A DNA stretch of 24,742 bases from a virus: positions 1 to 24,742 of IMG/VR virus record IMGVR_UViG_3300025646_000347; one strand, given 5' to 3'. Numbering within the stretch: position 1 is the stretch's first letter; every line of letters starts with the position of its first letter. The translations under genes and the position numbers were made by a program. Shown here in pieces: positions 257-9,477 of this stretch. The notes below the pieces were generated by a model. The model was not told where the DNA came from and ran no database searches. It saw only the letters and a program-made list of their open reading frames with translations.

Positions 257-1090
257 AGCAGATACAATTACTGTATCTCCACTTATTGTTGTGTCAATAC
301 CTTCACCACCTGCAAAGTTTAAAGTGTCTGTTAATAAATTAATTCCAAGACCAGTTGAACTATCATCTGAAACGTTTAGCGTTGTGGCAACGTTAACTGT
401 GCTAGCCGCTGTGATTCGTCCTTGTTGGTCTACTGTAAATGTTGGAATAGCAGTTGTTGATCCATAGGAACCTGGAGTAACTGCTGTGTCATCTAAATCT
501 ATTGAAATATCATTATTGGAAACAGTTGTTGTAATACCTGTATCACCAGTGAACGTAATAGTTTCACCTGTGTTTACAGTATCATTTGAACCAACGTCTG
601 CCGCTATAGATAAAGTTTGTGTAACTGTACCAAATGATAAATTACCTGAACCGTCTGTTTGTAAAAATTGTCCACTTGATCCATCTGAGATTGGTAATGT
701 AAAGTTTACATTATCCGCTAAACTATTTGGTGCTTTTAATTGAACATAATGAGCACCATTGTTAGTACCTTCATTAAATTTAATTCCACCACCTGTTGAA
801 GCATTATTACCTACAAAGATTTCATCAATTGCTTTATTTGAATCAACAAGTAATGCTGATGAAGCACTTAATGTACCGTGTACGTGATCTAATAATTGAG
901 TAAAGTATTTACCGCCAATAATATCTATATTAGCAGCAACACCGTTTGTTTCTGTACCTGAACCTATAAAGAGTCTATCACCAAAATTACCTTGGGAACC
1001 TGTGCCGTATGTAAAGGCTAGTTCGCCTTGTGCTAGTTCCGATGGTGCCTGAACGCCTGAGGATCGTTTTATTTTAATAATTGTTGCCAT
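1..1090 (-). CDS. Repeat-containing tail fibre protein (partial, C-terminus beyond window)
   Basis: This open frame has 363 codons from the ATG at 1090 to the left edge without a stop, so it is the N-terminal part of a longer protein. The start is preceded by AAAAGGAA. The N-terminus (MATIIKIKRSSGVQAP, then ELAQGELAYTYG) resembles the N-terminal modules of cyanophage and pelagiphage tail fibres. The remainder is Thr/Ser/Asp/Gly-rich beta-type sequence with recurring GGEG-(I/M)D-T and EDASTSNKGVASFDS units, the latter repeating every 70 residues. This composition is typical of trimeric fibre shafts. Role inferred: distal or side tail fibre, built late in infection and possibly taking part in host recognition. 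It is the last gene seen in the late run that follows the halogenase cassette. The receptor-binding tip, if any, lies outside the window. Confidence 0.75.
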   Translation of the reverse strand, partial: MATIIKIKRSSGVQAPSELAQGELAFTYGTGSQGNFGDRLFIGSGTETNGVAANIDIIGGKYFTQLLDHVHGTLSASSALLVDSNKAIDEIFVGNNASTGGGIKFNEGTNNGAHYVQLKAPNSLADNVNFTLPISDGSSGQFLQTDGSGNLSFGTVTQTLSIAADVGSNDTVNTGETITFTGDTGITTTVSNNDISIDLDDTAVTPGSYGSTTAIPTFTVDQQGRITAASTVNVATTLNVSDDSSTGLGINLLTDTLNFAGGEGIDTTISGDTVIVSAEDASTSNKGVASFDSNDFDVTSGAVTLEDTVVKTVTTDSGALTPSTHGFTINGGEGMDVTHVGTTITVAGEDASTSNKGVASFDS

Positions 1091-1103
1091 AAATTCCTTT
1101 TAT

Positions 1104-1361
1104 TTAAAAGTTACCGCCGTTGAAAATAATAGTTCCTGTATTACTTTCAATTGTTGTTTTGGTAACAAATTTATCTGTTGTTGCGTCATACTGAATCATA
1201 GAACCGTCTGTTAGTGTGCTACTATTCACGTCACCTAATGCTCTTAATTTAAAATTACTGCTTGTACCTGAAGATGGTTGAACAACTTGAACTCTATTTG
1301 GTCCAGTAGAATTGCTCTGCACTTTTGCTGTAATGACCGTAGTATTTCTTACATTTGCCAT
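1104..1361 (-). CDS. Small virion structural protein, 85 aa
   Basis: An 85-residue Ser/Thr/Asn-rich, beta-type protein starting MANVRNTTVITAK. It contains an ALGDVNSSTLTDGSMIQYD segment resembling the short modules found in marine T4-like phage fibres. The start at 1361 follows a GAGAG purine stretch. The ORF ends 13 bases before the next gene (start at 1090), and a TATAAATA box lies 43 bases upstream of the ATG. Position among fibre genes suggests a tail-fibre attachment or structural role. No enzyme motif, signal peptide or membrane segment is visible. The exact function is not recognised. Confidence 0.7.
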   Translation of the reverse strand: MANVRNTTVITAKVQSNSTGPNRVQVVQPSSGTSSNFKLRALGDVNSSTLTDGSMIQYDATTDKFVTKTTIESNTGTIIFNGGNF

Positions 1362-1403
1362 TTTAATCTCTCTATATGTTAAACAAACAGTATTTGTTTA
1401 TAC

Positions 1404-1411
1404 TATTTATA
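1404..1411 (-). promoter_or_regulatory. T4-type late promoter box (TATAAATA)
   Basis: An exact TATAAATAG on the minus strand, overlapping the end of the 112-aa gene and 43 bases upstream of the 85-aa gene start at 1361. It matches the T4 late promoter consensus read by the gp55 sigma factor. The same box recurs before other late genes in this window. Confidence 0.7.
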
Positions 1412-1745
1412 TTTTTGTAACTTCTGGAAGAACTGTAATAATACCTTCAATAACTCTAGTAACTGTACTATCTGAAGCAACTAATTCAACATCATATACA
1501 TAACGACCTTCAGTTATGCCACTAGTTATATTAGCAGGTAATGAAAGGTTTACAACACCTGTTGTTGGATCATCTGCGATTGTAACTGTAAAATTGTATG
1601 CTGTAGTTGATGAATAACTTCTTCTCATTTGAGAATAAGCAGAATATCCTGTCAGATTAAAAGCGTTGCCAGCACTATCTTGTACATTTACACTTGCTGT
1701 AAAAGTCGTGCCTTGGTCTAAGAATAGGTTAGCAACAGCAGCCAT
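1407..1745 (-). CDS. Small virion structural protein, 112 aa
   Basis: A 112-residue protein starting MAAVANLFLDQGTTF, with a DSAGNAFNLTGYSAYSQMR segment and a beta-rich remainder ending in VIEGIITVLPEVTKI. This pattern (an N-terminal dQGttf strand, then a LtGys motif) is common in small phage tail and baseplate-upper-type proteins that form an Ig-like beta sandwich. Its ATG overlaps the stop codon of a 20-aa micro-ORF (TAATG at 1747-1743), so translation is probably coupled to it. Role inferred: fibre or baseplate accessory protein. Family assignment is by general resemblance only. Confidence 0.7.
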   Translation of the reverse strand: MAAVANLFLDQGTTFTASVNVQDSAGNAFNLTGYSAYSQMRRSYSSTTAYNFTVTIADDPTTGVVNLSLPANITSGITEGRYVYDVELVASDSTVTRVIEGIITVLPEVTKI

Positions 1746-1807
1746 TATTCAAATCCTTTACAAATCTTTTTCCAGATATTAGTAATAAGTCTTTTAATCT
1801 TTTTCAT
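1745..1807 (-). CDS. 20-aa cationic amphipathic micro-protein
   Basis: A 21-codon ORF starting MKKIKRLITNIW and ending KGFE. Support for real translation: an AGGAGAG ribosome site lies 6 bases upstream of the ATG, an exact TATAAATA late box sits 17 bases upstream (1825-1832), and the stop overlaps the next gene's ATG as TAATG. Residues I4, L7, I8, I11, W12, I15 and F19 fall on one helix face, with K2, K3, K5, R6, K13, K14 and K17 on the other, so the peptide would form a cationic amphipathic helix. It could be a functional small membrane-active peptide or merely a leader that couples translation to the 112-aa gene. Function unknown. Confidence 0.5.
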   Translation of the reverse strand: MKKIKRLITNIWKKICKGFE

Positions 1808-1824
1808 AAGTCTCTCCTAACTTA

Positions 1825-1832
1825 TATTTATA
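1825..1832 (-). promoter_or_regulatory. T4-type late promoter box (TATAAATA)
   Basis: An exact TATAAATA on the minus strand directly after the halogenase stop codon (1837). It is followed by a short leader with AGGAGAG and then the micro-ORF ATG at 1807. It would start a transcript covering the micro-ORF, the 112-aa gene and genes beyond. Confidence 0.7.
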
Positions 1833-1836
1833 AGAA

Positions 1837-3303
1837 TTAAAGACTATTTCTGATTATTTCTATAGACTTTTTATGACTTAATTTTGTGCTATTCTCTATG
1901 ATTTCGTGTCTTTTATGAATTTGATTCCATATCTCATCTTTTAAATGAGGAGATAACATATCGTACTCTTTTCTTATAGAATCATAGTCAAACAATTCTT
2001 GTCCGTGCATAACTAAAGTGAAATTTGCACTTTTGAATAAACAATAGGATGATTTAAAATCTTCAGAAACAGGTAATTTATGTTTCCACTTATCTAATTT
2101 ATATTTTAGACTTTCAGGTAAAACTAAATTGTTTTTTAAGTCTTTCCAAAATGGAGTATCTTCAGGTTCAACAACATAATGTAAAGCAATAAAATCTAAA
2201 ATGTTATTCATCACAATATTCATTTCAGTATTATAATCGTTTATATCTTTTTCACCATAATTATTTAAATAATGAATAAGTAAAAAAGATTGATTAATAG
2301 TTGTACCTATTGAAGACGCTTCTAAAGGTTCTACAAAACTTCCTGCTAATCCCATAGCAACACAGTTTTTAATCCAAAATCTATCCATAGTACCAGCGTC
2401 AAACTTAACTTTTTTACCAATTTCAATTTCATATCCTAAATACTTTTCAACTTCTTCTTTTGCTTTGTCAAAGTCCATATAATTATCATTGAAAACATAT
2501 CCGTTGCCCCAACGACCATAAGTAGGTATTCTCCACATCCAACCAGCGTCCATTCGTCTAGCAATTGTCCAAGCATTATACTCATCTGTATCTTTTGTTG
2601 GAAAAGCAATTGCACTATTCATTTTTAAATATTTGTCATATGATTTCCACTTACCACCTAATTTTTTAATTAACATTCTTTTCATACCAGTACAATCTAT
2701 ATAAAAATCTGCCGAGTGTACTGTACGTTTACCTACTAATGTTTTAATATTACCTTCTTCATCTAAATGTATATCTTCAATTTCATCATTAACTACTTGT
2801 ATATGTCTATTTGAACAAAGTCTTAACAAAAAGTCATTTAATTTAAAAGTATTAAAGTGATATTGATAAACTGGAGAAAAATTAGGATTAACTAAAAAAT
2901 CTGGTAAGAATTTGTTTTCCCACAAAACAGAATCTACACATTCTTTTGCTTCTTTGCCTTCAGATATTAAAGCACCATAACCAGCAGGATACATTCCTAA
3001 TTCTAAACTGTATGGTTTATTAACACTATGTAAATAATCTTCTCTAGTCCAATTTTGAAACATTATACCAGATTTAAATGTAGCATCCGTCTCTCTTATT
3101 AATTCGTGTGTACTTAAACCAATGAAATCCATAAACTCTTGCCAGTGTTCGGTTGATCCTTCACCAACACCTATGATTCCTATGTTATCTGATTTAACTA
3201 CTTTAATTTTACAATTACTAAATCTGTGTTTTAAGATTAAAGCGGCAACTAATCCTGCTGTGCCACCACCAACTACTAATATTTCTTTAATATCTTTTCT
3301 CAT
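1837..3303 (-). CDS. prnA-like: Flavin-dependent tryptophan-halogenase family protein
   Basis: A 488-residue protein with the landmarks of flavin-dependent halogenases (PrnA/RebH type). These are the FAD-binding GGGTAG at 12-17; a lysine in ATFKSGIMFQNW at K77, aligning with the catalytic lysine (Lys79) of PrnA; the family signature WMWRIP at 255-260, which separates halogenases from monooxygenases; and EPLEASSIG at 325-333, whose E328 corresponds to the catalytic PLE glutamate. Length is close to the usual 500-540. The family uses FADH2 (from a separate reductase), O2 and halide to make HOX, which halogenates an indole or other aromatic. Marine T4-like phages encode such proteins, and one cyanophage member (VirX1) is known to iodinate diverse substrates. 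The ATG overlaps the upstream oxygenase-like stop as ATGA, implying coupled expression. Substrate unknown; no reductase gene is seen here. Confidence 0.9.
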   Translation of the reverse strand: MRKDIKEILVVGGGTAGLVAALILKHRFSNCKIKVVKSDNIGIIGVGEGSTEHWQEFMDFIGLSTHELIRETDATFKSGIMFQNWTREDYLHSVNKPYSLELGMYPAGYGALISEGKEAKECVDSVLWENKFLPDFLVNPNFSPVYQYHFNTFKLNDFLLRLCSNRHIQVVNDEIEDIHLDEEGNIKTLVGKRTVHSADFYIDCTGMKRMLIKKLGGKWKSYDKYLKMNSAIAFPTKDTDEYNAWTIARRMDAGWMWRIPTYGRWGNGYVFNDNYMDFDKAKEEVEKYLGYEIEIGKKVKFDAGTMDRFWIKNCVAMGLAGSFVEPLEASSIGTTINQSFLLIHYLNNYGEKDINDYNTEMNIVMNNILDFIALHYVVEPEDTPFWKDLKNNLVLPESLKYKLDKWKHKLPVSEDFKSSYCLFKSANFTLVMHGQELFDYDSIRKEYDMLSPHLKDEIWNQIHKRHEIIENSTKLSHKKSIEIIRNSL

Positions 3304-3845
3304 TTTGTTTTTAAGAACAAAAATGTAGTTAAAACCATTCTTGCGTCTTCTTTTTTTTCTCCAAAGTTGTCTTCAGGTTCGTGGTCAATGTGTGAATCGT
3401 AAAAAACACCATTATTAAAAATATTTTCTGAAACTTTTACGTTATTTTCATCAAAATATAACTTTGTACCACTATTTATTGGTGGATTTGGTGTTAAATA
3501 CACTACTCCTGCCAAATATTGGTTAAAATCTTGGAATCCATATTCAAAATCTTTGTGTTTGAACAACTGATCGCCATTTTTTGTATAAGAAAATGAAAAT
3601 TGAGTCATCCAACGGTCATATTTTTGATGAAAGTCTGAAATTTTTAATATTTTTCTAGCAATTGCATAAAATTTTTGACAAATTTGATAATACAAGTTGT
3701 AGTTTATATCATTTAAGTACTGTGTTCTATGTCCTGGAAACCCACCAATGTTGTTTGGGTGATTATTTTTATCAAAATACTCTAAAGAGAGAGCATAATC
3801 TCTAATTTCTTTAGGATTTTTAAAAAAATCTTTGACAATTAACAT
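3300..3845 (-). CDS. 2OG-Fe(II) oxygenase-like protein (possible DUF6445 type)
   Basis: A 181-residue protein when started at the ATG at 3845, which leaves 3 bases after the upstream gene's stop. A start at 3881 would give 193 aa but run into the preceding gene by 32 bases. The fold hints are those of a double-stranded beta-helix dioxygenase: HKD at 97-99 as the iron-binding HxD, then GVVYLTPNPP and SGTKLYF strands, a distal His at H152 or H155 in DSHIDH, and R169 in ARMVLTTF in the place of the 2-oxoglutarate-binding arginine. Proteins of this general look occur beside tryptophan halogenases in alphaproteobacteria and marine phages, some as DUF6445. Likely iron- and 2-oxoglutarate-dependent hydroxylation of an unknown substrate. 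The stop overlaps the halogenase start (ATGA). Confidence 0.7.
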   Translation of the reverse strand: MLIVKDFFKNPKEIRDYALSLEYFDKNNHPNNIGGFPGHRTQYLNDINYNLYYQICQKFYAIARKILKISDFHQKYDRWMTQFSFSYTKNGDQLFKHKDFEYGFQDFNQYLAGVVYLTPNPPINSGTKLYFDENNVKVSENIFNNGVFYDSHIDHEPEDNFGEKKEDARMVLTTFLFLKTK

Positions 3846-3849
3846 AATA

Positions 3850-4488
3850 TTATTTAAAACTATTACCGTGTATCCATCCAACTATAGAATATCTTGTTCC
3901 TTTTGATACTTCTTTAATTTTATGAGTTAAATAAGAAGGAAAGATAATAACTGATCCTTGTTTTTTAGCACTAGGAACTAATTTTCCATTTAAAATTTCA
4001 ACGTCACCACCTTCATAATCTTTTTCATCTGACAATTGAATTATAAAAGATAATTTTCTTGTAGGATATTCAGCGCCTACATCAATATGCCAATCAAAGT
4101 AATCTCCTTGTTCATACTTTAATATTTGAGGTAAATCATTATCTAATATTCCACTACAATCAAATTTATATTTTTCTTTATTAACAAATTGTAATAACTC
4201 ATTTATAATAGTGTACGGCCATCCATTTTGTCCAACTGGCAATGGTTGTGTTTTTACTTTTCTTAAATATTTAACATTTGGGTTGCCAGATACTCCACCA
4301 TTTTCCCATAATTCAGTTTCTACTGAATTGATGATTGCTTTACATTGATCTGAATTTAATAATTGTACGTGAATTGCTTGTGATATGTTTTTATTTGATA
4401 AAATAGATTTATTTTCTATTTCTGTTTGCAATTCATCTTGTTGCGAAACTACTGTTTCGGATTGTTTTGGATTTAATTCTATACCCAT
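3850..4488 (-). CDS. 2OG-Fe(II) oxygenase (prolyl-4-hydroxylase/PKHD type)
   Basis: A 212-residue protein with a clear 2-oxoglutarate/Fe(II) dioxygenase core in its C-terminal half. WHIDVG supplies the HxD iron ligands H134 and D136, followed by KLSFIIQLSD and EGGDVEI strands, H189 in SYLTHKI as third ligand, and R199 in GTRYSIVGWIHG as the 2-oxoglutarate contact. This order and spacing match PKHD/P4H-type hydroxylases, which act on proline or other residues. The first 35 residues are Gln/Glu-rich and probably disordered. The start at 4488 has AGGAG upstream and a TATAAATA box 34 bases upstream. It is the first gene of a three-gene late cassette with a second oxygenase-like protein and the halogenase, so the three may act on a common substrate. 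Confidence 0.9.
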   Translation of the reverse strand: MGIELNPKQSETVVSQQDELQTEIENKSILSNKNISQAIHVQLLNSDQCKAIINSVETELWENGGVSGNPNVKYLRKVKTQPLPVGQNGWPYTIINELLQFVNKEKYKFDCSGILDNDLPQILKYEQGDYFDWHIDVGAEYPTRKLSFIIQLSDEKDYEGGDVEILNGKLVPSAKKQGSVIIFPSYLTHKIKEVSKGTRYSIVGWIHGNSFK

Positions 4489-4521
4489 ATTATATTCACT
4501 CCTTTTATAATTTATTATAAC

Positions 4522-4529
4522 TATTTATA
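4522..4529 (-). promoter_or_regulatory. T4-type late promoter box (TATAAATAG)
   Basis: An exact late box on the minus strand, directly after the stop of the 232-aa gene and 34 bases upstream of the oxygenase ATG at 4488. It would drive the oxygenase-oxygenase-halogenase cassette as a late transcript. Confidence 0.75.
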
Positions 4530-5228
4530 CTAATAATTTGAATTGCCTTTTTTTGCCTCTCTCATATATTCATCTATATCCCAATTTTTATATTTCTTTT
4601 TTTGATTTTCTAAAACTTTTTGATGATTTATGAAAGCAATTTCTTCTGCTTCTGCTGAAATAATTTTATATCTTGGATCATCTTTTTTTGCAAACTTACT
4701 AACACTAGGAGACTTTTCAAACATTCTGCCTGCTTCTGCATTTACAACCCAATCTTTTAATCTTCTTCTATTTACAGGTTTATATTCTTTTTCTGTTCTC
4801 CACATACCTGTTTTATCCTGATAACGTTTCCATCCTTTTGGCATATCATCTTTAACACGTAAACCACCATATTGAGTATCAACTTTAGTTGTATAATGTT
4901 TACCAAAAGTTAACTTTCTTGTGTTACCTTTATACCATTCTTGTTGATCTTTTAAAAATTGTTCTTGTCTTAATTTTTTTTCAAAACGCTCTAATCTTTG
5001 TTCTTCAGTTTCTTTTTTATAAAAGATACCTCTACTGTCAATACCTGTGGCAGAGTCATTTATTCTATGTCCACCGTGTTTACCTGGATCACCTCCAGAA
5101 CCTTTTCCGTCATAACCAAATACTGCGTCATAATTATGTTTATAAGGAAACTCCTGTAGTGAAGGTACAGAACCTTTGTGATATTTTCTTTTAAGAACTA
5201 TAGGTGTTGGGAATTTTTTAGTTGTCAT
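4530..5228 (-). CDS. Hypothetical charged protein, 232 aa
   Basis: Not recognised. The protein is hydrophilic and very rich in Lys, Arg, Glu, Asp and Tyr. A glycine/histidine-rich stretch (GKGSGGDPGKHGGH, about 42-54) is followed by a likely helix or coiled coil at 73-100 (ETEEQRLERFEKKLRQ) and a basic central and C-terminal region. No membrane segment or signal peptide is seen. The ATG at 5228 has no Shine-Dalgarno sequence (upstream ACTAAATATTATT) and lies only about 15 bases after an intrinsic terminator, which is unusual. Next in-frame Met codons are far downstream, so this start is the only reasonable one. It sits between the adhesin-like fibre and the oxygenase cassette and could be a virion accessory or assembly protein, but nothing proves it. 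Confidence 0.65.
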   Translation of the reverse strand: MTTKKFPTPIVLKRKYHKGSVPSLQEFPYKHNYDAVFGYDGKGSGGDPGKHGGHRINDSATGIDSRGIFYKKETEEQRLERFEKKLRQEQFLKDQQEWYKGNTRKLTFGKHYTTKVDTQYGGLRVKDDMPKGWKRYQDKTGMWRTEKEYKPVNRRRLKDWVVNAEAGRMFEKSPSVSKFAKKDDPRYKIISAEAEEIAFINHQKVLENQKKKYKNWDIDEYMREAKKGNSNY

Positions 5229-5245
5229 AATAATATTTAGTCAAG

Positions 5246-5276
5246 TAAAAAGGGCGACTTTTTATGGTCGCCCTTT
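5246..5276 (-). terminator. Rho-independent terminator after adhesin gene
   Basis: A perfect 10-bp stem (AAAGGGCGAC at 5249-5258 pairing with GTCGCCCTTT at 5267-5276) encloses an 8-base loop. Read on the minus strand, the GC-rich stem is followed by TTTTT, the form of an intrinsic terminator. It lies 14 bases past the stop codon of the 508-aa fibre gene and would end that transcript. It is the only strong terminator I see in the late block. Confidence 0.85.
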
Positions 5277-5289
5277 GAATTAGTTTAGA

Positions 5290-6816
5290 CTATACCCATT
5301 GTAGAGAGACACCGTGTATTCTTATTGCCTCTGTTAAATTAGACATAGTAAATTTGTATTTCATTTGAGTACCAGATGGTTGACCTGATACGTCAATAGT
5401 TGCTGAATAAACTTTCTTACCACTAGCGCCTTCTAAATAACCACTATCAACTAGTGTTGCGTTAGTATAAGTTGCTCCATTATCTCTACTTACAGCAGCG
5501 ATAACGTCTGTGTTTAAAGTTTCAGAACCAATTTCCATAAATGCAACAAGTCTTGCTTTTGAAGGAACAGTTGTTGCTGTGAAAGCAGCAGATTCTAATA
5601 CACCTGATGTATTACTTGGTTGGAAAGCATAAGTACCACCACCGATACCAGGATTACCTCTACCAGAACCACCTCTACCAGCAGATGAACCGTAGTAAGG
5701 ATCACCTTGGTTTGGAGTACCGTAACCAGAACTACCTTGTGAAGTACTACCACCGCTTAATGAATAACTTGGGTTACCACCTATGTAGCCAGAGCCGCCT
5801 CCGCCACCTCTACCAGGATTGTGGTTAGATGAACCTCCGCCGTAGTAGCCTGAACCACCACCGCCGTTTTCACCACCGCCACCACCGTAGCCGTTGTGTC
5901 CAGAAGGAGCAGCAACGTTAGATGAGTTACCACCGCCGCCGTGTAATTTACCACCAGATGAACCACCGTGACCGCCACCGCCGCCACCTTGTGTACCACC
6001 TGAAGCACCACCAGAAGGTGCAGGTTGACCAGAGTTTCCTCCGCCACCGCCTCCAAATCCATCGTTATATGCACCAGCACCAGCACCAGCAATCATAATA
6101 ACATCATTAAATGAAGTTGTTGATCCTGAAGGGAAACTGTGTGTACCTGGCCATACGCCTGATAAACCACCACCGCCACCACCGTGACCGCCTTGGTTAC
6201 CAGCACCGCCGCCTATAATTACTTGAAATGAATCTCCGTTTGAAACGTTGATTGAACCTTGTGTGTGACCACCGCCACCACCATTACTGCCTTGAGCAGG
6301 AGCAGTTGTTCTAGCACCTCCGCCACCGCCCCAAAAATACCATTGAATTGAACCATCACCACTAGTAGCATTTAATGTACCAACTGTTGATGTAAATGTA
6401 AATGGGTTTGTTTGAGATACAGGAGCACCTAAGTTTGAATAGTAATCACTTGGAGTGTCATATTCTAAATTTGGGTTTGCTCCAACTCCAGATGTATCGT
6501 TAAATTCATCTACAATACCATCTGTTAAATTGAATAATGTTAGACCGTCATTAACGGCTAATTTAAATCCTAATACACCAACGTTTTCGTTGACTGTATC
6601 TAAATCTGTTGATGTTACTGCGCCACTAATTTTAGAGGAAGCAATAGCAGCACTTGGAGAAATGTCATTATTGGTAATACTTCCAGATAAATTAGTTTTA
6701 CTGTACGCAATAGCAGCACTTGCCGAAACATCATCATTAATTAATGTTGCGTCTTTTATTTTAGCGCTTTCAATAGTATCTGTTGTGATATTATCGTTTG
6801 TTATTTTAGTTGTCAT
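5290..6816 (-). CDS. Polyglycine-rich tail fibre adhesin-like protein
   Basis: A 508-residue protein in three parts. Residues 1-130 are a fibre-type N-terminus with the recurring NDDVSASAAIAYSK / NNDISPSAAIASSK unit. Residues about 138-398 are extraordinarily glycine-rich, with at least eight runs of four or more glycines (for example FWGGGGGAR at 161-169 and FGGGGGGNSG at 254-263). Residues about 405-508 form a beta domain ending in RIHGVSLQWV. The glycine block resembles the polyglycine-II sandwich of T-even gp38 receptor-binding adhesins, with loops between glycine strands as candidate receptor contacts. The N- and C-terminal parts match the adjacent 235-aa protein, which lacks the insert. 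The gene has its own late box (6838-6845) and terminator. Start at 6816 has GAGG about 12 bases upstream. Confidence 0.8.
   Translation of the reverse strand: MTTKITNDNITTDTIESAKIKDATLINDDVSASAAIAYSKTNLSGSITNNDISPSAAIASSKISGAVTSTDLDTVNENVGVLGFKLAVNDGLTLFNLTDGIVDEFNDTSGVGANPNLEYDTPSDYYSNLGAPVSQTNPFTFTSTVGTLNATSGDGSIQWYFWGGGGGARTTAPAQGSNGGGGGHTQGSINVSNGDSFQVIIGGGAGNQGGHGGGGGGLSGVWPGTHSFPSGSTTSFNDVIMIAGAGAGAYNDGFGGGGGGNSGQPAPSGGASGGTQGGGGGGHGGSSGGKLHGGGGNSSNVAAPSGHNGYGGGGGENGGGGSGYYGGGSSNHNPGRGGGGGSGYIGGNPSYSLSGGSTSQGSSGYGTPNQGDPYYGSSAGRGGSGRGNPGIGGGTYAFQPSNTSGVLESAAFTATTVPSKARLVAFMEIGSETLNTDVIAAVSRDNGATYTNATLVDSGYLEGASGKKVYSATIDVSGQPSGTQMKYKFTMSNLTEAIRIHGVSLQWV
5562..6405 (-). repeat. Glycine-codon-rich low-complexity tract
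   Basis: On the plus strand this reads as repeated CCACC/GCCACC/CCGCC units and is visibly more GC-rich than its surroundings. It encodes the glycine-strand domain of the adhesin-like protein. The degenerate short repeats make it prone to recombination or replication slippage and probably underlie strain variation. Confidence 0.7.
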
Positions 6817-6837
6817 ACTTCTATTTATCCTCTATTA

Positions 6838-6845
6838 TATTTATA
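6838..6845 (-). promoter_or_regulatory. T4-type late promoter box (TATAAATA)
   Basis: An exact late box 21 bases upstream of the adhesin ATG at 6816, just before the stop end of the upstream paralogue (6849). A one-mismatch copy (GATAAATA) lies closer to the start. Confidence 0.7.
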
Positions 6846-6848
6846 CGG

Positions 6849-7556
6849 TTATGCCCATTGTACGGAAACACCGTGTATTCTTGATTCTTGGTTAGCACAT
6901 TCTATTTTATATACTATTGATGAACCACTAGTTGATGAAAAAGTTTGTTTAGCAGACCATATTTTCATACCAGAAGCGCCTGTAAAATAACCGCCATCTG
7001 TTAATGTCGCTGTTGTAAACGTTGATCCACCATCACGTGATACACTAACTATAAAGTCTGTGTTTGCTGTAGGACTTCCAACATCTTCTTGCCATAGAAT
7101 AACTCTAAACTTAGACGGAGCAGATTCTGCTGAATAAGAGTTACCTATAATTGTTCCTGATACACCAGAAGCATTGTTATAATAGTCATCTGTACTATTA
7201 TAAGTCATACCTGTAGAACTAGAAACACCTGTTTCATCTTCGTATTGGTCAACAAAACCATCCACTAATGCCTGTTTTGATAAACCTTCATTTTGTGATC
7301 TTTTAAAATTTTGAGCAGCCACAGCATAAAATAATCTATCTACCTCTGCTTCAGCAGCGATACCATTACATTTTGATACTGGAATGCCAGCAGCACTTGT
7401 TATGTCAGCGTCCGTTATTGAACCTGATAGATTAAATTTACTTTTTGTTATAGCAGCGTTAGCAGCAAAATCGTCATTACTTAAAGTGTTTAACTTTACT
7501 GATCCTGATTCTATTGTGCCATCTGCAAAGTTGGCATTTGTTACTCGTGTTGTCAT
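6849..7556 (-). CDS. Tail fibre protein, short paralogue of the adhesin
   Basis: A 235-residue protein with the same architecture as the 508-aa neighbour but no glycine domain. The N-terminal fibre unit (SNDDFAANAAITKSKFNLSG) is followed by a linker with VDGFVDQYEDETGV and DDYYNN, then a C-terminal beta domain at about 144-235 containing VSRDGGSTFTTATLTDGG and ending RIHGVSVQWA. The C-terminal domain is found in other marine phage fibre proteins and is likely a beta-sandwich for oligomerisation or binding. AGGAG lies 9 bases before the ATG. The two genes are adjacent and co-directional, which fits a tandem duplication. It may be a structural connector while the long copy carries receptor specificity. 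Confidence 0.8.
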   Translation of the reverse strand: MTTRVTNANFADGTIESGSVKLNTLSNDDFAANAAITKSKFNLSGSITDADITSAAGIPVSKCNGIAAEAEVDRLFYAVAAQNFKRSQNEGLSKQALVDGFVDQYEDETGVSSSTGMTYNSTDDYYNNASGVSGTIIGNSYSAESAPSKFRVILWQEDVGSPTANTDFIVSVSRDGGSTFTTATLTDGGYFTGASGMKIWSAKQTFSSTSGSSIVYKIECANQESRIHGVSVQWA

Positions 7557-7574
7557 TTAGACGAACTCCTATTT

Positions 7575-7817
7575 TTAGATTGGCAATTCTCTAATAATGA
7601 TTTGTACACCACTTGCTGGAGCAGTTGTGAAAGTCAAAGTTGTTCCAGAAATTGTATAGTCAGTTGTTGGTTTTTGTAAAACTCCGTTTTCTGTTACTAA
7701 CACTTTATCAACTGTTTGATTTTGTGTTACAGTAAATCCCGTAGTTGAACCATCACCTGTTGCCGATCTAACATTGATTTCAGTTGGTCTGTCTTTACCT
7801 TGTATGTATCTTACCAT
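7575..7817 (-). CDS. Small beta-rich virion protein, 80 aa
   Basis: An 80-residue protein containing ATGDGSTTGFTVTQNQ, ENGVLQKPTTDYTISG and TLTFTTAPASGVQIIIRE. This strand pattern (a GDGstt-F-T start, VNGVLQ-type turn, DYTIsGttltFttAPasG) is a widespread module in phage tail fibre and structural proteins. It is probably a small fibre-associated or baseplate protein. The ATG follows AGGATC, and the upstream 66-aa gene ends 2 bases before it, so the pair is translationally close. No enzymatic residue is evident. Confidence 0.75.
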   Translation of the reverse strand: MVRYIQGKDRPTEINVRSATGDGSTTGFTVTQNQTVDKVLVTENGVLQKPTTDYTISGTTLTFTTAPASGVQIIIRELPI

Positions 7818-7819
7818 TG

Positions 7820-8020
7820 TTATGATCCTACTTTTGTTCCGAAGTAACCAGTTTCGTTGTTTACTTCTCTAGTTTCATCTGCCGCTTTTGGATTATAAAC
7901 TTCGCCATTATTGCCTACTATTTTAGCAAATACAGTACCGTTAACTCTCTTAATTTGTGCATTAAGAGTCGGTGCGCTATTACCTTTATCGCTGTCGTTT
8001 ATAATTTTTTTAATTGCCAT
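7820..8020 (-). CDS. Hypothetical small protein, 66 aa
   Basis: A 66-residue soluble protein starting MAIKKIINDSDKG, with VNGTVFAKIVGNNGEVYNPK in the centre. An AAAGG ribosome site precedes the ATG at 8020. No family is recognised. It sits inside the run of small late genes between the 122-aa and 80-aa structural proteins and is packed 2 bases from the latter, so a virion or assembly role is likely but unproven. Confidence 0.65.
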   Translation of the reverse strand: MAIKKIINDSDKGNSAPTLNAQIKRVNGTVFAKIVGNNGEVYNPKAADETREVNNETGYFGTKVGS

Positions 8021-8047
8021 ATGAACCTTTATTTGTTAAAAAAAATA

Positions 8048-8416
8048 TTATACGTCTTCTAAAACAGACATTACAACATCTATTGATGAACCAGCAGAAG
8101 CCTCTGCTCTAATTACATCACCTGTTGTACCGTCATTTTGAAGAACTATTTTGTTACCTTGCATTATTTCAACTGTAGTGTTTCCTGGAACTTTTAAATC
8201 TTTACAGATGTAACCATCGTTGGTTCCATCATAGTTATCTAAAAATAGACCTACTGTTCTTTCAGAAGCATTTTTATTACAAACTGAAATGCCGATAACG
8301 ATTGATTCTAATGCTGTAGAACCTGCACCTGCTGGAACTGTGTAAACAGCGTCCGCTGAAGCGCCAGTTGATGTTCCTACATCACCTTTTACTTGTCTTT
8401 TAAAATCGTTTGCCAT
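8048..8416 (-). CDS. Small virion structural protein, 122 aa
   Basis: A 122-residue beta-rich protein starting MANDFKRQVKGDVG. It has a YTVPAGAGSTALESIVIGISVCN segment and a VGLFLDNYDG turn, and resembles small phage proteins with a tail-fibre-attached jelly-roll-like fold (VPAg-st-ivi-i-vaN pattern). GGAG lies 4 to 5 bases before the ATG. It begins a late transcript behind the TATAAATA box at 8502-8509 and carries an 86-base leader with an inverted repeat. Role in the virion inferred from neighbours. Confidence 0.7.
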   Translation of the reverse strand: MANDFKRQVKGDVGTSTGASADAVYTVPAGAGSTALESIVIGISVCNKNASERTVGLFLDNYDGTNDGYICKDLKVPGNTTVEIMQGNKIVLQNDGTTGDVIRAEASAGSSIDVVMSVLEDV

Positions 8417-8438
8417 ATCTCCGTCCTAATTTATTTTA

Positions 8439-8465
8439 TTAGTTTAGATAAATTTACTAAACTAA
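8439..8465. repeat. 9-bp inverted repeat in leader of 122-aa gene
   Basis: TTAGTTTAG (8439-8447) and CTAAACTAA (8457-8465) form a perfect but A/T-rich 9-bp stem with a 9-base loop. It lies between the late box at 8502 and the ATG at 8416. There is no T-run after it on the coding strand, so it is not a typical terminator. It may shape or stabilise the mRNA leader. Confidence 0.45.
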
Positions 8466-8501
8466 ATGTTTTGTTTATAGTTAGTCAACTTATACATTAT
8501 C

Positions 8502-8509
8502 TATTTATA
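8502..8509 (-). promoter_or_regulatory. T4-type late promoter box (TATAAATAG)
   Basis: An exact late box in the 100-bp gap between the 145-aa gene (ends 8517) and the 122-aa gene (starts 8416), on the coding strand. Confidence 0.75.
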
Positions 8510-8516
8510 TTTCTCT

Positions 8517-8954
8517 CTATCCTAATGCTATTGCCTGAGCGATTGCAAAAGGTTGAGTAGCAACACTAGTACTATTTAGTGTTAAAGTACCAGTAGCGTT
8601 TATATTAGTGCCACTTATAGAAGTACTAGTGAAACTTGTAATTCCTGATATAGTAGTATTTAGTGTTACTGTCATAGTATCTGGACTAGACACAGTTGTT
8701 GTAATATTACTGTCACCAGCAAAATTAAATATATCTCCTCCAACCGCATTAGCAACAACTTCTTGTGTTGTAGAACTACTATCTCTAATTGTAAATTTAG
8801 CAACTCCAGCATTGATTTCATTAACAGCACCAACAATAGATGTTGCTATGGTAGTTAATGTAGCAGGATCGCCTATATCAGTAGATGATAGACTATTAAA
8901 ACTTGTTCTAAAGTTTTCTAATGTATCTGTTACTGCGACTGTTCTTGCTGTCAT
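8517..8954 (-). CDS. Tail fibre-type structural protein, 145 aa
   Basis: A 145-residue protein with VTDTLENFRTSFNSLSSTD near the N-terminus (residues 8-26). The TLE-FRT-FN-LS motif recurs at the start of many marine T4-like phage fibre proteins. It then has AATSIVGAVNEIN-like helical sequence and Thr/Ser-rich beta repeats (ISGITSFTSTSISGTNINATG). It looks like a fibre protein reduced to an attachment domain plus a short shaft. The start at 8954 has only weak purine-rich sequence upstream (AGAGAAAG), and the preceding gene ends 6 bases earlier, so coupling is likely. Function inferred from composition and place. Confidence 0.75.
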   Translation of the reverse strand: MTARTVAVTDTLENFRTSFNSLSSTDIGDPATLTTIATSIVGAVNEINAGVAKFTIRDSSSTTQEVVANAVGGDIFNFAGDSNITTTVSSPDTMTVTLNTTISGITSFTSTSISGTNINATGTLTLNSTSVATQPFAIAQAIALG

Positions 8955-8960
8955 TACTTA

Positions 8961-9179
8961 CTAAACTTTCTCTTTTAATAATTTTTTAATTTCTAAAATT
9001 TCTGCTTTTAAAGAATTAATTTCTCTAACCGCTGCTTTCATTTGGTCGTTATTCGAGTCTCTCTCTCGTTTTCTTTTCATATACACTTCATATTCAGATT
9101 TATTTGAATTAACAATCGCTTGAGATTTACTGTCTCTAACTAGTGAAGTGTATCCTTCAACTTTTAAATAACGACTCAT
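8961..9179 (-). CDS. Hypothetical coiled-coil protein, 72 aa
   Basis: A 72-residue protein. The N-terminus (MSRYLKVEGYTSLVRD) and Tyr/Arg-rich middle (YEVYMKRKRERD) are followed by a heptad-type C-terminal helix from about 43 to 72 (NSLKAEILEIKKLLKEKV). Small proteins with this layout are conserved among T4-like cyanophages beside structural genes. A coiled-coil oligomerisation or tail-assembly role is plausible, but no function is established here. No strong ribosome site is visible; the upstream 95-aa gene ends 10 bases before. Confidence 0.65.
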   Translation of the reverse strand: MSRYLKVEGYTSLVRDSKSQAIVNSNKSEYEVYMKRKRERDSNNDQMKAAVREINSLKAEILEIKKLLKEKV

Positions 9180-9189
9180 AATTACTTTA

Positions 9190-9477
9190 CTAAATTCTAT
9201 TTCCGTGAGAAGCGTTACCTCTTACTTTGATATAATGATTTGTTGGGTCTTCAGCAATCCAAGCATTTAACTGCGTGTAATTGTATGAAGATGTATCATT
9301 TAAATCTATGTAGTGATAATTGCCGTGTGTATCCGTAACCGCTATTTTTATTTTAGCAGCATTTGTATCGCTGTAATCATTATTTTCATACAAATATCTT
9401 GCCTCTAAAATTTCATCTTTTGAAAAAATAGCAGGTTTAAGATCAGGATTATATCTGTCATCGTGGTTTAAACTCAT
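9190..9477 (-). CDS. Hypothetical late protein, 95 aa
   Basis: A 95-residue acidic, Tyr/Asn/Asp-rich protein starting MSLNHDDRYNPD, with AAKIKIAVTDTHGNYHYIDL and a C-terminal HYIKVRGNASHGNRI. No family is recognised. The start at 9477 has a good AGGAG at the right spacing and a TATAAATA box about 18 bases upstream, so it is a well-supported late gene. The giant structural gene ends 21 bases upstream of it. A small virion protein is the likeliest role. Confidence 0.65.
   Translation of the reverse strand: MSLNHDDRYNPDLKPAIFSKDEILEARYLYENNDYSDTNAAKIKIAVTDTHGNYHYIDLNDTSSYNYTQLNAWIAEDPTNHYIKVRGNASHGNRI

Follow-up and report, generated by a model that had tools for sequence, protein, structure and literature searches.

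A late-promoter cassette of a flavin-dependent halogenase and two predicted 2-oxoglutarate oxygenases in the tail-fibre block of a T4-like phage: a candidate module for the tailoring of virion proteins

Layout of the cassette

The analysis was carried out on a 24.7-kb IMG/VR virus record (IMGVR_UViG_3300025646_000347), the whole of which is referred to as the window, and was focused on a cassette of three minus-strand genes, designated gene A, gene B and gene C. These encode two predicted 2-oxoglutarate-Fe(II) (2OG) oxygenases and a flavin-dependent halogenase (FDH), respectively, and are considered here as a candidate module for the modification of tail-fibre or other virion proteins. By protein sequence the phage is placed among T4-like phages related to pelagiphages and methylophages: its baseplate-wedge protein shares 63% identity with the Pelagibacter phage Mosig protein and 55% with the one from Methylophilales phage Melnitz.

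As an earlier reading of the DNA letters (hereafter the sequence-only reading) had it, three packed minus-strand open reading frames (ORFs) are present (Table 1), with the start of gene C overlapping the stop of gene B in an ATGA at 3300-3303; the gap between gene A and gene B, given there as 3 bases, is actually 4 bases (3846-3849). The single late promoter box that had been placed ahead of the cassette was also found (TATAAATA at 4522-4529, minus strand) and is the sole late box serving the three genes. A total of nine late boxes were detected in the window, all on the minus strand (shuffled sequence yields 4.9, both strands summed), and each of the nine lies, by box and ORF coordinates, no more than about 100 bases ahead of a minus-strand ORF. 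The placement of the cassette within a tail-fibre block was supported by the fibre-type genes on its flanks. An FDH together with 2OG genes within a fibre block and a late box, the combination by which the fibre-linked FDH/2OG module was defined in this work, is therefore present in the window.

Table 1. Features of the cassette and of the surrounding fibre block (positions in the window)
Feature	Position	Strand	Details
Gene A, 2OG-Fe(II) oxygenase, PKHD/P4H type (predicted)	4488-3850	minus	212 aa; H134-x-D136, H189, R199
Gene B, DUF6445-like 2OG-Fe(II) oxygenase (most likely)	3845-3300	minus	181 aa from ATG; H97-x-D99, H155, R169
Gene C, FDH (predicted)	3303-1837	minus	488 aa; GxGxxG, K77, WMWRIP 255-260, E328
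T4-type late promoter box TATAAATA	4522-4529	minus	exact match; 34 bases upstream of gene A ATG
Next late box	1825-1832	minus	serves 112-aa gene 1407-1745; downstream limit of cassette
Gly-rich fibre-type protein	5290-6816	minus	up to 51% Gly; ORF and composition; without own Pfam match
232-aa gene between Gly-rich fibre and cassette	4530-5228	minus	without Pfam or PHROG match
112-aa fibre-associated protein, marker of syntenic slot	1407-1745	minus	phrog_3304 L-shaped tail fibre assembly, E 8e-25
85-aa fibre-block gene	1104-1361	minus	syntenic in relatives
Tail-fibre gene, open at window end	2-1090	minus	syntenic in relatives

Predicted enzymes of the cassette

Gene C was matched to PF04820 (E 1.7e-95, 321 bits against a cut-off of 21) and to phrog_2928 (2e-103). 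The catalytic K77, the W255-M-W-R-I-P260 signature and the catalytic E328 named in the sequence-only reading are all present, together with G12, G14 and G17 of the GxGxxG motif. K77 and E328 are aligned with K75 and E354 of PyrH, and the catalytic Lys and Glu are kept in 86/86 and 84/86 members, respectively, of a wide FDH set. The predicted model (predicted local distance difference test (pLDDT) score 94) has the two-domain FDH fold, with PyrH as the best match in the PDB (Z 44.7, root-mean-square deviation 2.4 over 473 residues) and MibH (Z 39.9) and VirX1 (Z 37.3) among the other neighbours. The catalytic residues are thus intact, and the protein would be an active enzyme.

The fold (Z 41-45), the motifs and the catalytic residues are common to gene C and the tryptophan halogenases PrnA, PyrH and RebH (PF04820), but the identity over the aligned structure is only 26-27%, and gene C, unlike these enzymes, lies in no biosynthetic cluster, with free tryptophan not being indicated as its substrate. 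At the 'FES' stretch of AbeH, used for comparison with a free-Trp halogenase, 'FKS' is read in gene C from the sequence alignment alone. MibH, a lanthipeptide Trp 5-halogenase (PDB 5uao), provides a family precedent for the halogenation of Trp within a peptide, although it is 23% identical to gene C and acts on a small peptide of ribosomal origin rather than on a virion protein.

The two Fe(II)/2OG oxygenase-like proteins of the sequence-only reading were borne out by different evidence. Gene A was matched to PF13640 (2OG-FeII_Oxy_3, E 4.8e-16, 59.9 bits against a cut-off of 27) and, under the cut-off of that profile, to the Fe2+-dependent dioxygenase NF003974 (7e-19); its PDB sequence matches are the PKHD hydroxylases PiuC and Sbal_3634, and its HxD...H residues and Arg were read off the alignment. 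Gene B was called DUF6445-like, since PF20043 (DUF6445) was matched at 23.3 bits, under the cut-off of 24; PF13640 was also matched under its cut-off (E 0.0013). The residues H97, D99, H155 and R169 of gene B are invariant among 23 phage and bacterial homologues, and the predicted model (pLDDT 84) is closest in fold to HIF prolyl hydroxylase 2 (PHD2), with bacterial prolyl 4-hydroxylase (P4H), including that of Pseudomonas, and PiuC also matched (best E 4e-6, TM score up to 0.64). Because of these invariant residues and the prolyl-hydroxylase-like model, gene B is most likely a 2OG oxygenase. Identities to the PKHD-type (PiuC, YbiX) and P4H enzymes are low, mostly 10-18% for gene B.

DUF6445 (PF20043) as a whole is probably a 2OG-oxygenase family, and its re-annotation is possible. 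The PHROG label 'minor coat protein' (phrog_1644) for gene B was rejected as a mislabel, being contradicted by the invariant triad and Arg and by the 2OG fold. This label and 'DNA endonuclease V' (phrog_274) were found on proteins that either are 2OG oxygenases or cross-match them (window 3300-3845; contig L183, 11117-11905 and 14334-16041), and phage annotations under these two names are probably wrong.

Grouping of FDH, 2OG and fibre genes in viral loci

Loci were retrieved by FDH alignment (80 viral, 79 from bacterial collections) and their ORFs were scored with purpose-built 2OG profiles iterated at E 1e-4; 71 of the 365 profile matches are without the strict HxD...H...R pattern, and some assignments may be loose. 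Over 84 viral loci, 2OG genes made up 0.46 of the genes adjacent to the FDH, 0.44 and 0.39 of those two and three genes away, 0.17 at five genes and 0.07 at a distance of at least eight genes. A 2OG gene directly adjoins the FDH in 53 loci, compared with 37.1 +/- 3.7 under rotation of the gene lists (0/2000 as high), and in 30 loci compared with 22.7 +/- 2.8 (17/2000 rotations) when one locus per 70%-identity cluster was taken. Curated PF13640 matches at most 5 kb from an FDH numbered 19, with 7.7 expected, in 12 whole records (6 cultured phages among them).

Fibre genes are repeatedly part of this grouping. One contig lineage (L017, L019, L032, L035, L040, L045, L072, L073, L076 and L088), which, by a phrog_3287-type structural gene, would be podovirus-like, repeatedly has a Gly-rich fibre gene followed by small protein(s), 2OG genes, an FDH and further 2OG genes. 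The FDH directly follows a fibre gene in L003, and in L025 and its relatives three 2OG genes and an FDH lie a few genes from the baseplate-wedge tail-fibre connector. Those Gly-rich proteins that were tested gave matches to PF21722 or to tail-fibre PHROGs. A phrog_863 Gly-rich tail-fibre gene is present in nine complete cyanophages; seven of them (S-CREM1, Sf-CH11, S-RIM44, syn9, P-TIM40, P-RSM6 and S-WAM1) have an FDH at most 1.2 kb away from it, and two (P-SSM2 and S-B64) do not. Fisher p for this association was 3e-4, a value to be read with the caveat that the nine are related phages (Kyanoviridae, in so far as they are classified) with a common ancestry. An attempt to correlate fibre with 2OG states through independent pairs was dropped, as too few pairs were informative.

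A much denser version of the cassette was observed in L016, L020, L039, L041, L057 and L058, where four to five FDH genes, in tandem in several records, are interleaved with many 2OG genes beside Gly-rich fibres. Carbamoyltransferase and sulfotransferase genes were also seen inside FDH/2OG clusters (L025, 3259-5088; L088, 5783-6556), which suggests a wider tailoring chemistry.

The VirX1 locus and the syntenic slot

To our knowledge, VirX1 is the sole characterised viral halogenase. Its PDB sequence (6qgm) is that of Syn10 CPUG_00131 (529/530 residues identical), and the order at the Syn10 locus is Gly-rich fibre genes (PF21722, phrog_863), gp40, an FDH, VirX1, two genes and ten 2OG-type genes, the last including DUF6445-like, 2OG-FeII_Oxy_5 and 2OG-FeII_Oxy_3 genes and a JmjC/cupin protein. 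The locus resembles the window in having Gly-rich tail-fibre genes ahead of the halogenase and a 2OG cluster with DUF6445-like genes after it, but has tandem FDHs where the window has a single one. No description of this fibre/2OG neighbourhood was found in the literature searched, a search outside which the original VirX1 paper lay. The enzyme has been described as preferring iodide, with many aromatic small molecules accepted in an open active site (PMC8407142). VirX1, cited as a relative in the sequence-only reading, is indeed a phage FDH with the same catalytic Lys and Glu as gene C; since it is distant (23% identity over the aligned structure) and belongs to another FDH clade, its iodide preference is not transferable to gene C.

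The slot occupied by the cassette was followed in 79 viral contigs that carry the 112-aa gene, in which 65 2OG genes lie upstream of this marker (475 genes) and 0 downstream (356 genes). The slot contains 2OG genes and a complete FDH, 27-28% identical to gene C, in both L214 and L222; in L263 the FDH is cut by the contig end. The same slot by the same fibre genes takes either FDH clade, together with 2OG genes, because the L214 and L222 FDHs group with the VirX1 clade and gene C does not. Gly-rich fibres were present in just 1 of the 79 (short) loci, and the link is therefore with the fibre locus generally, not with Gly-rich fibres alone. The corresponding block of Melnitz, bounded by the orthologues of window genes 7575-7817 and 1407-1745, is occupied by other fibre genes, with no cassette match.

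The one-sided distribution bears on the explanation that the fibre locus is a hot spot gathering mobile genes, with FDH and 2OG genes as unrelated passengers (for DNA repair, iron/heme or host stress), which we regard as unlikely. Host-recognition islands at the fibre regions are variable, with Fe(II) oxygenases previously noted among their genes (PMC3909814). These phages have many 2OG genes, for which a part in DNA repair has been suggested (PMC2984593), and gene order and copy number in the FDH/2OG loci are highly variable. However, the payload is narrow (FDH, 2OG and few transferases), the 2OG genes keep to one side of the fibre marker and their density falls steeply with distance from the FDH. 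A DNA-repair (AlkB-like) role for the 2OG genes found no support in the families and neighbours seen here.

Bacterial relatives and the FDH tree

Operons of marine Gammaproteobacteria (e.g. Shewanella, L107 at 275-9259) have the order TonB receptor, FDH, SapC, Cupin_8, FDH, DUF6445, the DUF6445 gene of L107 matching PF20043 at E 3.8e-67. As in the cassette, an FDH stands beside DUF6445 and a second, 2OG/cupin-type oxygenase, so the pairing of FDH with DUF6445 is common to bacteria and phages. The operons differ in having a TonB receptor and SapC, which the phage cassette is without, and in lacking fibre genes, and the FDH identity is about 33%.

The TonB receptor gene at the start of these operons could suggest a late change to a host receptor (e.g. 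a TonB-dependent one) or glycan, by which superinfection would be limited or fewer progeny would adsorb to debris. Some phage clusters have carbamoyl- and sulfotransferases, which are typical of surface chemistry, and the FDH of S-SSM7 has carbamoyltransferase and heptose genes around it. Nevertheless, FADH2 and 2OG are cytoplasmic cofactors, which is unfavourable to direct action at the surface, and a receptor gene is annotated in none of the phage loci examined; we consider host-surface modification highly improbable.

In a quick FDH tree gene C was placed outside the VirX1 clade, in another supported clade (99*), with bacterial FDHs between, while one common phage FDH clade was not rejected by the approximately unbiased (AU) test (p 0.108). 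That the VirX1-like and window-like clades were acquired independently is not claimed, given this AU result despite the split in the tree. The FDHs of L089 and L090 group nearest to viral FDHs, and L091, filed as a contig of a Verrucomicrobia metagenome-assembled genome, shares its gene order with the viral contig L088 and has the appearance of a phage contig.

Proposed role of the cassette

The enzyme families, the catalytic residues, the late box, the position in the fibre locus and the recurrence of FDH and 2OG genes by fibres were observed directly, and the folds were predicted by modelling; from here we infer enzyme activity, a protein rather than a small-molecule target, and the residues modified. 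The late promoter type of the cassette is also that of the structural genes. HIF and bacterial prolyl hydroxylases act on protein. Because of the late timing, the fibre locus, the protein-hydroxylase-like 2OG folds and the peptide-halogenase precedent, we propose that the cassette is a late-expressed module for the oxidative tailoring of a tail-fibre or other virion protein, a reading that we hold as plausible, just short of probable. The two 2OG oxygenases would hydroxylate side chains (probably of Pro/Asn/Asp type) and the FDH would halogenate side chains (probably of Trp/Tyr/His type) of the newly made protein, the simplest target being the fibre made from the same locus. FADH2 for the FDH, together with Fe(II), 2-oxoglutarate and O2, would be supplied by the host, and the modification may alter the folding, oxidation resistance or host binding of the adhesin. 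The sequence-only reading had proposed much the same: its enzyme identities, catalytic residues, late promoter and fibre-block placement stood, and the virion-protein substrate is still something that we infer.

Several results weigh against this proposal. The exact A-B-C triad was found in a single, near-identical contig (L002) and was rejected as a general feature, so that of the neighbourhood conservation looked for by the sequence-only reading the general grouping of FDH and 2OG genes held and the exact three genes did not. The distance from FDH to Gly-rich (PF21722) genes was not significant in a rotation test on mostly short fragments (p 0.22). Fibre linkage of phage FDHs is not universal, because FDHs lie at non-fibre sites in S-PM2 and S-MbCM6 (tRNA/psbA/hli islands), S-B64, P-SSM2, HTVC008M (terminase genes) and L006 (gp45/gp44). 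Marine phages are known to have variable islands at their fibre loci (PMC3909814), and the position may reflect hitch-hiking; the bacterial FDH relatives have TonB receptor and SapC genes as neighbours and may act on a different substrate there; and no halogenated or hydroxylated phage fibre or modified virion residue was found in the literature searched.

Some of the same observations would suit late halogenation and hydroxylation of a host or imported aromatic metabolite, with the fibre proximity due to chance. Such small-molecule tailoring agrees with the open active site and wide aromatic range of VirX1 (PMC8407142), with a review in which phage FDHs are treated as metabolite modifiers (PMC10452541), with the metabolic islands of S-PM2 and S-MbCM6 and with the TonB receptors beside the bacterial homologues. 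It is nonetheless, in our view, somewhat unlikely, as fibre genes and 2OG clusters repeatedly adjoin the FDH in separate phage groups, a late box stands ahead of the cassette, and no pathway gene or flavin reductase was recognised among the window ORFs examined.

For the tailoring of a virion protein, the recurrence of the FDH-2OG-fibre grouping, which is wide and includes the locus of VirX1 itself, is stronger support than had been offered by the sequence alone. Extended to marine phages, the proposal is a widespread module of FDH and several 2OG genes, sometimes with carbamoyl- or sulfotransferases, that would halogenate and hydroxylate the phages' own tail-fibre adhesins, which would also be the native role of VirX1; this extension is tentative, possible rather than probable. 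The enzyme families are known, while the recurrent fibre-linked FDH/2OG module appears to be undescribed in the literature searched. Phage FDHs were earlier read in terms of antibiotic protection (PMC2984593) or halogenation of host metabolites (PMC10452541). Phage halogenases have so far been taken as auxiliary metabolic genes without a known substrate, and VirX1 has been studied as a biocatalyst, its natural role unknown; the finding of VirX1 and other phage FDHs in fibre-linked 2OG clusters opens the native role of these halogenases to experiment. If true, the proposed tailoring would be a new phage route to adhesin variation beyond sequence change, in which receptor-binding proteins are diversified chemically by enzymes of the virus.

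Flanking genes and minor observations

The orthologue of the 112-aa gene in Melnitz is annotated as a tail fiber protein. For the 232-aa protein a single relative was found among viral contigs; compared with L002, four of five codon changes in its gene are non-synonymous. The three cassette genes differ from those of L002 by 0, 0 and 1 codon changes, a divergence too small for selection on them to be judged. At 5249-5276, in the interval that separates the Gly-rich fibre gene from the 232-aa gene, an 11-bp stem with a 6-base loop was found, which is possibly a bidirectional terminator.

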